64,000 nucleotides of DNA from Malassezia japonica (taxonomy: Eukaryota > Basidiomycota > Malasseziomycetes > Malasseziales > Malasseziaceae), in the NCBI RefSeq assembly GCF_029542785.1, contig NC_083370.1, positions 186,001-250,000 on the forward strand, written 5' to 3'. The position numbers and the translations under genes are program-made. Each line of letters opens with the position of its first letter. Position 1 is the first letter of the stretch. A model generated the notes under the pieces. That model saw only the letters and a list, made by a program, of their open reading frames with translations. It had not been told where the DNA came from and did not search any database. Shown here in pieces: positions 10,120 to 14,510 of the stretch.

Positions 10120-12078
10120 CTACAAAGAGACAAACCGCGGCGCGACGCGGGCGAGTCGCAGGCCGTGCGTGCGGGGCGCGGTCGAGGAGGAGCGTGCGTT
10201 CAGCGTCCAGGGCGCCAGCACCAGGCGCAGGCGCGCGGCCGCGGCCGCAATCTCGGGCGGGGCGGACGCGCCGCCGAGATGGTCGAGAAACGGAGCGTCG
10301 GCGGGATGCTTTGCGCGCCACGCCTCGTCGAGGCGCGGCAGGGTATCCCGGGGAGCGTCCGTGCCGAGGCGTAGATGGGCGTGGCCGAGCGTACGCAGCG
10401 CGGTGACGAGCGCATGCGACGGCACCGCATCGTCGCGCGGCGCCGCGTCGCCGGCGGCTACGGCGCGGGCGACGTGCACAGCGGTCCAGCGCTGCGCGAG
10501 CGTGGCGCGCACCTCGGCGAGGCGCGCAAGGAGCGGCGCGACCTCGTCCAGGCCGTCGACACGCTGCTGGAGATGCGTACATAGACGTAGAAGCCAGCCG
10601 AGCGCCGCGGCATCGTCCGTCTCTTTTGCGAGGTGGCTCGCGACTTGGTCGCATGTGCGCGACAGTGGCTCGATCGCCGCACGGCCGTACGTGCGCGTGT
10701 GCCGCGCGGCCGTAGTGAGCTGCGTCGCTAGAGGGCCGACGACCGCGTCGAGCGCGTCGCTCTTGCGCGGCGGAAAGAGCGGCTCGTCGCCTTGCGCGGC
10801 GAGCGCGGCATCGGCCGCCGAGGCAAACGCTTTTGTAGCCGCAGCAAGCGTCTGCTGCACGAGCTCCACGGCACGCTGGTCGAGGAGGGCGGCGAAGCGC
10901 GTGTGCAGCGCGTCGAGCGCACGCAGCGAATGGCGCTCGCGGTGCGTCTGCATCGTCGTGTGCAGCGCCGCGCGGCACTCTGCTACGGCGTCCAGGTCGT
11001 CGACCGGCGCAAGGAGTGCGGCGAGCGCATCGACCTTGGCGCACACGCGGTCGGCCCACGCCGTACTGGCTTCGTCCACGTCCGCCGCCGGCACGGGCGT
11101 CGGGGGCGGCAGGGTATACGCGGTGATCTCGAGCGGCAGGTGCCCATAGAGGACCGCGGACGCGCGCGGGCCTGCGTGAAGGAGCGGCGCGCCGAGCGCA
11201 AAGAAGCGCGACGGCGTCCCTGGCTCGGCCGCATTGCGCAGCGTCTCGAGCAGCGACGTCGGACCGGTGTGCGAGCGGAACACGGCATCGGTCTGGGCGA
11301 GCGTCGAGGTGTAGCACGCGGCGACAGCCTGCATGCCGTTGAGCGCGTCGCCCGACTCGGCCCGTAACACACCCCGGATCTGCGCGTAGCGCTGGGCGTG
11401 AAAGTAGGCGAGCGCCTCGCTCGGCGTCTGCTCGCCCAGCACAATGAGCGCCGCGAGCGCCTGACGCACGTCGTCTGTCGATGCCGCGCCGAGCGCCTGT
11501 GTCGCCCGCTCCACGAGGGCGGTGTGCGCGCGTAGGCGGCTGCGTTCCGCCGCGCTGCATTCGGAAAATACGGCGGCATCCGGGGCGTGTTTCTCGAGAT
11601 AGTCCATGGCGCCTCTGCCGATACACACGCACCATGCAGAGAGCAGCAGTGCGCCGCGGCGCATCGCACTCTCTGCGAGCGCCGGCGCATCGAGCACGAC
11701 GAGCACGCAGGCGCCGACGGCGAGCGACGGCGCGTCTGCGCCGCCTGCCGGCTTCTCCAGCGCATGCGCGCGGGTGCGAGCGCTCGCGCTGTACGCTCCT
11801 ACATTCCTCTGCAGTCCCTGGAGCGAGGTCTGGAGCGAAGCGAGCGAGCCTTGCATGTTGACGACCGTCTTGGCGACGCCCAGCAGCTCCTGGTACCGAT
11901 CGCCGACGAGTGCGCGGGCCGCGTGTTGCTTTTCGTGCGCGACGCGGCCAAGCTCTGCACTATACGCCTCCATCTGCTTCACCGAGTAGCGCGCGAAGAG
12001 CCCATCCGCGTCCTCGTGCAGCGCCGCGGCGACCGACGGCCCCGCGTCCGGCGCCTCGGTCATGGTGGAGGGGGACAT
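10120..12078 (-). CDS. COG1: Conserved oligomeric Golgi complex subunit 1
   Basis: A 652-aa protein, mostly helical. The N-terminus LFARYSVKQMEAYSAEL and the following QYxELLG-type helix (RYQELLGVAKTVVNMQGSL) fit the Cog1/Vps51 N-terminal signature. COG tethers vesicles recycling within the Golgi and binds SNAREs. The start is either 12078 or the second ATG at 12063. The stop codon of YKT6, on the same strand, lies only 14 bp upstream of the first ATG, so the promoter must overlap the SNARE gene or the two share a transcript. No intron is needed. Sequence outside the N-terminus is poorly conserved, as usual in this family. Confidence 0.8.
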   Translation of the reverse strand: MSPSTMTEAPDAGPSVAAALHEDADGLFARYSVKQMEAYSAELGRVAHEKQHAARALVGDRYQELLGVAKTVVNMQGSLASLQTSLQGLQRNVGAYSASARTRAHALEKPAGGADAPSLAVGACVLVVLDAPALAESAMRRGALLLSAWCVCIGRGAMDYLEKHAPDAAVFSECSAAERSRLRAHTALVERATQALGAASTDDVRQALAALIVLGEQTPSEALAYFHAQRYAQIRGVLRAESGDALNGMQAVAACYTSTLAQTDAVFRSHTGPTSLLETLRNAAEPGTPSRFFALGAPLLHAGPRASAVLYGHLPLEITAYTLPPPTPVPAADVDEASTAWADRVCAKVDALAALLAPVDDLDAVAECRAALHTTMQTHRERHSLRALDALHTRFAALLDQRAVELVQQTLAAATKAFASAADAALAAQGDEPLFPPRKSDALDAVVGPLATQLTTAARHTRTYGRAAIEPLSRTCDQVASHLAKETDDAAALGWLLRLCTHLQQRVDGLDEVAPLLARLAEVRATLAQRWTAVHVARAVAAGDAAPRDDAVPSHALVTALRTLGHAHLRLGTDAPRDTLPRLDEAWRAKHPADAPFLDHLGGASAPPEIAAAAARLRLVLAPWTLNARSSSTAPRTHGLRLARVAPRFVSL

Positions 12079-12092
12079 AATTCCGCTATGCA

Positions 12093-12857
12093 CTACATCA
12101 CGCCACAGCACGAGTCTGGGTGAGCGACTGGACCTACTTTGCTTGCGCGCGGACTTGTAGAACATCTTGCTCTGCTGCGAGAGCGAGCCGCTCTTTTCGA
12201 CGAGCTTGTCGAGGTCCTCGCCACGCTGGAGCACCGAGTCGATCGTGTTGTGCTGCGTCAGGGCGGAAACGTACCAGAACGATCTTGGTATCGTCGAGTT
12301 CCTGCTGCACACGCAAGATGGTATCCGCCTGGCGGGGGTCCTGGTAGCGCGACAGGTAGTCCTGGGCCTGGGGAAAGTCGCTGGAGCGCAGGAGGCCCTC
12401 GCCCTTCGCCGGCACGTTGCCGCTGAGCGCGATCGAGTTGGCCTGCGACTGCCACGTCGCCTTGGGCACCTTGATAATAAACTCCTCGAGGAGCTTGTTC
12501 AGGAGCGAGTACGCCACGCGCACGGGGTACTCGCTGTCCGAGACCAACACACCGCTGATGCCGTCGACCGCAGGGCGCGCGTGCACATGCGCGGTAAAGT
12601 TGTTCTCCTGGATCGACTGGCGCTGCGTCGGCGAGGTGCGCTCGACGACCGTCTGCGTGAGCGGAGCGACCTACCTTGGCCATGAACGCCATCATGTCCT
12701 GCACCGTACCGCGCTGGATCCACGAGAAGGAGTTCAGGTCCCAGGCACTCAGCAACGGCACGGCCGGCTGGCCCGCCTGCGTCGCAAAGATGAGCACGGC
12801 GTCTGCGTTAGACTCGCGACATACACAGCTTCCTGGGTCAGCGCGCCTCACGTACAT
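12093..12857 (-). CDS. YKT6: v-SNARE Ykt6, six exons with a split start codon
   Basis: Exons are complement(12093..12115, 12138..12252, 12275..12652, 12675..12802, 12825..12832, 12856..12857), giving 217 aa. All five introns are 22-23 nt. The start codon is split: AT ends exon 1, and an 8-nt exon supplies G plus AAG CTG T. Together they read MKLYAVLIFA, the expected Ykt6 longin start. The longin domain contains WDLNSFSWIQRGTVQDMM. The SNARE helix reads ELDDTKIVL|HNTIDSVLQ across an exon junction. The last exon gives KQNSCCGVM, a double-cysteine palmitoylation/prenylation tail. Every junction is supported by the family sequence. Ykt6 acts in Golgi, endosomal and vacuolar fusion. It is divergent from the gene at 12914 across 56 bp. 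Confidence 0.93.
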
Positions 12858-12913: not shown

Positions 12914-14510
12914 ATGCCCGTCCCGACCGTCTCCACGGCCGGCGCACGGATCGCTCAGTTCTTGCTTGTCGCATTTTTGGTAGGAGTTTGTGCTAACCCA
13001 GTCTATCTTTGCGCTCAAGTTGTTTGAAGCGCGCGATGTATTTTATATGCTGCACAACTCGGTGCGCGCCGATTTGCCCGCGTTTTGGGTGCGGCCCCAG
13101 CCGAGCGGCATGGGCACCCCGCAGTGCCGCAACCTGTACGGGGTGCCTGTGCCAGACGAACGTGCGTACCTCAAGGAGGAATCTACGGGAGTACGTGTGC
13201 AGTTGACCGAGGCGTGCGAAGACGTGCACCTCTCGGAAGAGCTCGGCATCGCCATCTTTACCTGCGACCCGGGCCGCCCCGCATGGAACGCCGTGCTGGG
13301 GCCCGCGCGCGAGCCGCACTGGCGCGGCGGACTCTGGATCCTAGACTACAAAACGGCACCGTTTGAACAGGAGCCGACGTTGCTCAACGTGGAAGATCTC
13401 CCGGACCACCACGACTTTCATCCGCTCGGCATCACGATTTATGAGGTCTCGCCGAAGCTCGCACGTCTCTTTGTCGTGAACCACCGCGGGATTGCGAATG
13501 TCCTCGAGGTGATCGACCTGCAAAAGGATGCGGGGGTCTGGCGCGCACGCTACGTGCGCACCATCGCCCATCCGCTCGGCACGCACGCATCGAACAGCGT
13601 CGAGGCGCTGGACCGCAACGAGGTGGTGGTGACCAACATGCACACCGGCATGGAGCGTCAAGTGGCACAGCCGTATCTCGAACGCACGCTCCAGGGGCTG
13701 TACGGCGTATGGTCCAAGCGCCTCGCCCCGTACTTTTACGGCAAAAAGTTCAAGAACCAGGTCCAGTTCGTCGAGGACCTCTTTGGCGGCGGATGGATCG
13801 CACACATCAAGTTTGAGGACCGCGTGCCGATGCCGCACGACGAAGACTTGGATGCATGGGAGAAGGGCGTCGAGGCGCACGTCATCGCACGGGGTATTCC
13901 ATTTGCCAACGGCCTCAGCCTCACGCCGGGCCACCGGCACCTGGTCGCCGCGTCCACGACGGTTACCGGCGTGGTGATCTTCCCGATAGAGCGCTGGACG
14001 GACGACGGCACGCCGGACTGGGCAGATCCCAAGGTGCTCGGCCGCCGTACAGTCGTCCCGACGCCCTTCTTTGCGGATAATGTCGAGGTGATTGCGCCCA
14101 AGCCGGGCAGCCGCGTGCGTGCAGACGACCCGCTGCAGGGCGCCAAGATTCTCGTCGCAGGCCACCCGTCCCTGCCGGACCTCCACGATATGCTCGCGCA
14201 CCTCGGCGAGGGCGCACCAAACGAGCACCGCGCCCCGAGCTGGGCGGTGGAAATTTCGTACACGGGCACGCAACAAGAGGACCAAGCGCCTCTGCCCGCC
14301 CACGAACGCATCACGGGCGTGCCGCACGGATGGACCGTGCGCACGCTCTTCCAGACCGACGGAAAACGCAACCTAATTGACGGCAAGACCATGGAGCTGC
14401 CTACGAGCTGCGGCGTGGCATGGGATAGCTCGGGCGAAGGCCACGGCACGCTCATCGTCACAGGCCTGTACTCGGCTGCGCCGATGCTGTGCCGCGGCGT
14501 GTATGTATAG
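12914..14510 (+). CDS. Paraoxonase/arylesterase-like membrane-anchored beta-propeller
   Basis: Exons 12914..12979 and 13002..14510, 524 aa. The 22-nt intron has donor GTAGGA and ends CTAACCCAG; splicing joins QFLLVAFL|SIFALKLFEA, completing one N-terminal membrane segment (about 14-32). The rest fits a six-bladed propeller of the PON/SMP-30 type, with SNSVEALDRNEVVVTN and PFANGLSLTPGHRHLVAAS. The N, E and D residues expected to ligate calcium are in such blocks. Family members hydrolyse lactones, aryl esters or organophosphates; the substrate here is unknown. A single uncleaved signal anchor would put the propeller in the ER lumen or outside. Confidence 0.75.

Follow-up and report, generated by a model that had tools for sequence, protein, structure and literature searches.

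A start codon interrupted by an intron has been described for ribosomal protein L19 in the genome paper of Nosema ceranae, in which six genes had predicted introns (PMC2685015). The YKT6 gene of Malassezia japonica appears to be similar, in that its start codon is broken by a short intron in the compact genome of a fungal lineage. In YKT6 an 8-nt exon would come next, whereas the accessible text on Nosema ceranae mentions no microexon following the L19 intron (PMC2685015). Unlike the six genes of Nosema ceranae, introns in M. japonica are estimated in thousands, and at least two of its genes (YKT6 and SLA2) look split in the start codon.

Microexons of 1-15 nt are known from plants, for example in APC11 and VPS55, and 1-nt exons have been reported (PMC8831610). 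As in plants, tiny exons in M. japonica appear to be overlooked in annotation, which leads to wrong N-termini. The plant class was established by RNA-seq and RT-PCR, whereas the M. japonica exons, mostly located between introns of 22-23 nt, are predicted from consensus and homology (PMC8831610). A functional fungal microexon is found in Xlr2 of Trichoderma virens, where it is a regulated switch (PMC11121469); the M. japonica microexons would instead be used constitutively.

Among very short introns, those of Stentor are 15-16 nt long and have no strong branch consensus (PMC9505925), those of Bigelowiella natans are 18 nt and those of Trichomonas 23 nt (PMC9505925, PMC12316389). A paper from 2025 called a single 23-nt Trichomonas intron one of the shortest known (PMC12316389). 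The M. japonica introns are likewise near the physical minimum length (PMC9505925, PMC12316389), but unlike those of Stentor they end in CTNACNCAG and a single length, 22 nt, dominates (PMC9505925). Within the genus, the introns of M. restricta are also very short, with an average of 37.2 nt and a median of 30 nt, whereas the M. japonica class, surveyed only up to 35 nt, is shorter and very uniform (PMC9241646). We found no literature on the YKT6 locus or on a 22-nt main intron class in M. japonica among the matches listed for titles and abstract openings of open-licence papers, which is not proof of absence.

The window, the whole stretch of 64,000 nucleotides analysed here, belongs to a genome assembly of 9 contigs and 8.43 Mb. 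The first-pass annotation named one of its minus strand genes YKT6, and this identity is borne out by the best PDB match of the spliced product, which is aligned from residue 1 (8.7e-53). The spliced product also matches the Pfam families Longin (PF13774, 1.2e-15) and Synaptobrevin (PF00957, 2.1e-13), both over the cut-off. The three PDB YKT6 chains listed, 3kyq, 6j74 and 6j7f, from rat and human, all have MKLY, and the restored N-terminus of the product is aligned with each of them from its first residue. The first two align end to end including NSCC..M, and 6j7f without the last residues. Given the spliced model, the protein thus has the YKT6 hallmark of MK-hydrophobic-aromatic at residue 1 and a C-terminal CC..M replacing the membrane anchor. 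The CC..M tail of YKT6 is lipidated. The features of the gene model are as follows, in positions of the window.

12856..12857, minus strand: exon 1, the AT of the split start codon, which restores the M of MKLY; the 5' UTR is further upstream.
12833..12855, minus strand: intron 1, 23 nt, GTACGT...CTGACCCAG, full letters GTACGTGAGGCGCGCTGACCCAG; it matches the consensus and falls in the genome-wide short-intron class.
12825..12832, minus strand: exon 2, the 8-nt microexon GAAGCTGT, consisting of the G of ATG, AAG, CTG and the T of TAC.
12803..12824, minus strand: intron 2, 22 nt, GTATGT...CTAACGCAG, full letters GTATGTCGCGAGTCTAACGCAG.
12675..12802, minus strand: exon 3, from ACGCCGTG, opening AC GCC GTG CTC ATC TTT GCG.
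12653..12674, minus strand: intron 3, 22 nt.
12275..12652, minus strand: exon 4, which carries most of the Pfam Longin match.
12253..12274, minus strand: intron 4, 22 nt.
12138..12252, minus strand: exon 5, part of the Synaptobrevin/SNARE motif.
12116..12137, minus strand: intron 5, 22 nt.
12093..12115, minus strand: exon 6, NSCCGVM and the stop codon, the CC..M tail of YKT6.

The letters and lengths first read at the start of YKT6 (AT, a 23-nt intron, an 8-nt exon and a 22-nt intron) are exact to the base. The interval given for them, 12825..12857, holds the AT, intron 1 and the 8-nt exon, and intron 2 lies just outside it. Read from the sequence, the start codon is split as AT|G and splicing of both introns restores MKLYAVLIF, as had been proposed. 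The MKLY start of YKT6 requires the 8-nt exon, which is internal, within the 30 nt used as upper limit for microexons and needed for the conserved protein; it contributes the last base of ATG, the K and L codons and the first base of the Y codon. Introns 1 and 2 each have complete signals, GTRNGT...CTNACNCAG, and from their GT..AG termini, their 5' consensus and a properly placed CTNAC branch site the YKT6 introns are predicted to be of the U2 type. Very probably, the YKT6 start codon is cut by a 23-nt intron and followed by an 8-nt exon.

The surroundings of the gene are compact. From the YKT6 stop codon to the ATG of the next gene on the same strand there are 14 nt (12078-12092). This gene encodes a Vps51/EXO84/COG1 N-terminal domain (PF08700), giving two membrane-traffic genes in tandem, and a shared transcript of the two is possible. 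At the other end, a divergent gene on the plus strand has its probable start at 12914 and a 22-nt intron at 12980-13001; its predicted product of 524 aa has no Pfam match. The start codons of YKT6 and the divergent gene are separated by 56 nt, which would serve both promoters and 5' UTRs.

The genome-wide survey of intron length covered one consensus class up to 35 nt. GTACGT...CTAACGCAG was counted 259 times with a length of exactly 22 nt and 42 times with one of 23-35 nt, with 0 in the backward control in both cases, so that 22 nt is the exact length of 259 of the 301 introns of this class in the range of 22-35 nt. At 16-21 nt, the looser end pattern CTNACNCAG was found 5 times vs 2 in the control. 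Strict-consensus introns of 22-23 nt number 335 vs 0 in the reversed sequence over 290,101 bases, made up of the window and loci L004-L114, the latter chosen around such introns. The unchosen 64-kb window alone gave 19 vs 2 in the control with a looser intron definition. By extrapolation from base frequencies, taken over 375 introns with a length of 22 nt in the window and in loci mostly picked around tandem or AT|G sites, we estimate that introns of 22 nt number roughly 3,500. The presumed branch A is base 17 of 22, at a distance of 16 nt to the first base of the intron and of 5 nt to its last base. In 74% of the 22-nt introns, position 4 is C (GTACGT). The U6 snRNA was found in locus L151 and keeps the ACAGAGA box although intron position 4 is mostly C. 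No Rfam match was found for U1 snRNA; a negative Rfam result does not show absence.

Exons as short as the second one of YKT6 were searched for with a half-strict tandem pattern, a 3' site followed by a complete intron within 30 nt. This gave 60+35+31+4=130 matches genome-wide vs 0+2+0+0 in the backward controls. An ACNCAG that precedes a real intron by chance escapes the backward control, and the surroundings of the matches were therefore examined: a complete upstream intron is also present in 58 of the 130, YKT6 among them, and the 72 without one were dropped. With a slightly wider rule for the 5' site and the length, 51 loci hold 61 tandem pairs, whose enclosed exons measure 3-29 nt. Of these exons, two are up to 6 nt long, ten are 7-10 nt, 26 are 11-20 nt and 23 are 21-30 nt; two exons of 3 nt and three of 7 nt are included. 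Under a flat distribution, exons up to 6 nt are depleted (2 of 61, probability 1.6e-4) and those of 7-10 nt are not (10 observed vs 8.1 expected). Random placing of the estimated introns would give about 30 such pairs, so there is no sign that exons longer than about 7 nt are avoided. The YKT6 exon of 8 nt is above this floor.

An open reading frame is nearly uninformative on these exons. Among the 61 tandem cases the frame is open in 55 with inclusion, 53 with skipping, and 48 and 52 when the exon is lengthened and shortened by one base, respectively. It is also open in 47 and 42 cases with one intron kept and in 30 with both kept. This test hardly separates inclusion of the microexon from the controls. 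There are 15 microexons of up to 12 nt, in 14 loci; 12 of the proteins were translated and ten scanned with Pfam, L022 and L104 being left out. In all ten, a Pfam match covers the position of the microexon, and nine pass the curated cut-off. As the alignment could bridge a short gap, this coverage backs frame and place more than the exact letters of the exon.

Three of the loci are described in brief. L064 (G000:C3:661870-663900, minus strand), coding for a JmjC-like protein below the Pfam cut-off, has two 22-nt introns that flank the 3-nt exon TTT. In L011 (G000:C1:402150-404220, minus strand), the CPWH of a Rieske domain spans a 3-nt and a 7-nt exon between three 22-nt introns, the letters TG|CCC|GTGGCAT|CAA giving C-P-W-H-Q. 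Six of the 13 relatives found were read, and four of these have an uninterrupted CPWH. In the other two, P0121 and P0122, the three introns are read through and CPWH is lost. The uninterrupted relatives suggest that the L011 introns were gained in the M. japonica lineage, unless the records were already spliced before translation. The third is uracil phosphoribosyltransferase, whose deposited M. japonica protein is annotated through microexons of 10 nt and 28 nt as modelled here (RIGKILIQRDEETAKPKLFY). The M. brasiliensis record has Y where M. japonica has IQR, which suggests that this record is wrong at conserved residues. The M. japonica genome appears to hold thousands of 22-nt introns and dozens of tiny exons.

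For YKT6 itself, the four splicing choices at introns 1 and 2 were translated with the three downstream introns always removed. Removal of both gives a YKT6 protein of 217 aa ending NSCCGVM. Removal of intron 1 alone gives MKLCMSRV and then a stop, and removal of intron 2 alone gives a frameshift and a stop. With neither removed, the product is an in-frame protein of 232 aa starting MYVRRADPGSC: the frame stays open because the introns sum to 45 nt (23+22), and the ATG survives because intron 1 begins with G. Since the frame can be read through without splicing, splicing is not compelled by the sequence alone. The Pfam Longin score does not discriminate either, as it is nearly equal for the spliced and unspliced forms (57.6 vs 57.5 bits). 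Among the four choices, MKLY is obtained only with the split ATG and both introns removed; upstream ATGs are also present.

The unspliced form is the one in the protein database. The deposited M. japonica protein P0001, named 'palmitoyltransferase', matched with 100% identity over 98% of the query; it begins MYVRRADPGSCVC and keeps both introns (45 nt) in frame. If this record were right, neither intron would be spliced and translation from the same ATG would give 232 aa with a 19-residue N-terminus, MYVRRADPGSCVCRESNAD, replacing MKLY. The open frame agrees with this, but we consider it very improbable. The model loses MKLY, and neither the PDB alignments nor the 26 YKT6 proteins that were read showed a counterpart of the 19 residues. 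Moreover, each retained stretch fits the whole intron consensus, and the reversed or backward controls contained 0 introns of this class at 22-23 nt.

Homologues point the same way. Among the best 120 of 647 homologues, all YKT6 proteins, 65 start with M[KRQ][LIVM][YF]. In Tilletiaria and two Pseudozyma records the N-termini are MKLYGLLIF, MQLYGLLIF and MQIYGLLIL. All five named Malassezia YKT6 records among the same best 120 (japonica, furfur, obtusa, vespertilionis and brasiliensis) have an aberrant or missing N-terminus. We back-translated the Malassezia read-through proteins and searched for CTNAC, a gap of 0-9 bases and CAG, a pattern with a background of 26 in 1498 positions; P0022 was too short and was left out. 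Four groups, P0002/P0029, P0003/P0004, P0006 and P0023, allow CTNAC...CAG ending at the exact phase of intron 2. These proteins are compatible with an intron-2 boundary of the same phase, as a trace in protein rather than in DNA. Scans of the viral_contigs and genome_contigs collections, neither of them devoted to fungal genomes, with the M. furfur protein found no relative. The N-termini of P0018, P0019, P0020 and P0030, from Tilletia species and a similar record, are partial or extended too, hinting at old introns near the YKT6 start codon in other Ustilaginomycotina. The deposited M. japonica YKT6 is probably wrong at its N-terminus, and the gene model with both introns spliced is very probably right.

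The two forms could also both be made, the retained in-frame form from the same AUG being a second isoform under a regulated switch. A total intron length that is a multiple of three and an ATG kept in either form would fit such a switch, but we give it only a very slight chance. An open stretch of 45 nt is unremarkable in GC-rich DNA, as the 30 tandem cases open with both introns kept illustrate, and keeping a single intron truncates the protein. The residues retained in M. japonica were also not seen in the other Malassezia read-through N-termini.

Two further readings have a negligible probability in our view. Twin introns are known in fungi, according to the accessible literature, and the GT at 12855 and the CAG at 12805-12803 could in principle be joined, so that a stwintron or a single 53-nt intron would connect AT directly to ACGCC; this would delete G AAG CTG T and leave no start codon and no MKLY, and the inner AG and the inner GT are both set in complete consensus signals. 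The locus differs from a stwintron in having two complete separate sets of signals with coding sequence between them. A true start further upstream, in another 5' exon, could use same-strand ATGs 58, 117 and 254 nt before the split ATG, but those at 58 and 254 nt are out of frame with the spliced start, the one at 117 nt, in frame in unspliced upstream sequence, is beyond the predicted start of the divergent gene and inside its first exon, the 300 nt upstream of the split ATG contain no strict intron and no CTNACNCAG, and the extra residues would have no counterpart in the homologues read.

Other split start codons were searched for in the whole genome. The AT|G pattern with a consensus intron has 43 sites vs 0 in the control. 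All 43 were read, and only two, YKT6 and SLA2, have homology support as a start; the rest look internal or undecided. Locus L117 (G000:C1:688493-688817, minus strand) encodes the N-terminus of SLA2, matched by PDB SLA2 chains from residue 15 on (2.2e-07). The 50 codons upstream of its split ATG contain no in-frame ATG, and no stop either, so the start may lie further up. The SLA2 start codon also appears to be split AT|G by a 22-nt intron, although this assignment is not final. With this second case, the split start of YKT6 is probably not unique. The A|TG pattern has 32 sites, as pattern matches alone.

We suggest that YKT6 is spliced constitutively by intron definition, its five ultrashort introns being removed one at a time and the joined AUG giving MKLY, and we hold this with high confidence. 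In brief, each intron would be recognised as a whole unit, through the 5' site GTRNGT at positions 1-6 and the fused branch/3' site CTNACNCAG. The first two introns would be removed successively, whichever comes first, since two spliceosomes are unlikely to fit on an 8-nt exon at the same time. Translation would then begin at the joined AUG and continue as MKLY, with which the longin domain opens. With both introns kept, the same A-T-G would be read with an aberrant in-frame N-terminus, and if one alone were removed the product would be truncated. The functional cost of retention, like the efficiency of the splicing, is inferred.

The first-pass annotation saw exon definition at the limit of known splicing. 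We find no support for this: the 5' and branch/3' signals of the two introns are complete and their length is usual in this genome, which makes intron definition sufficient, and the same genome has exons of 3 nt and 7 nt. Since the complete signals fit within 22 nt and the size is near-uniform, intron definition is the natural reading and the 8-nt exon need not be defined as a unit.

More broadly, and with about even odds, we speculate that the M. japonica spliceosome has a hard floor of 22 nt at which most short introns are piled, with exon size nearly unconstrained to a limit of about 7 nt and exons of 3 nt still tolerated. Introns would have been gained or kept even within start codons and a four-residue iron-sulphur ligand motif, and YKT6 would be one case of a genome-wide minimal-splicing system. 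Split starts and microexons were known before; a 22-nt floor together with 3-nt exons in a fungus would be new. These data also suggest that deposited Malassezia YKT6 proteins, and those of some other genes with microexons, are wrong at conserved residues. The wider pattern of the genome is more interesting than the YKT6 case itself. If it is true, a culturable fungus with minimal introns and exons would allow a direct test of the lower limits of spliceosome assembly, namely the distance from 5' site to branch, the distance from branch to AG and the size of an exon between two introns.
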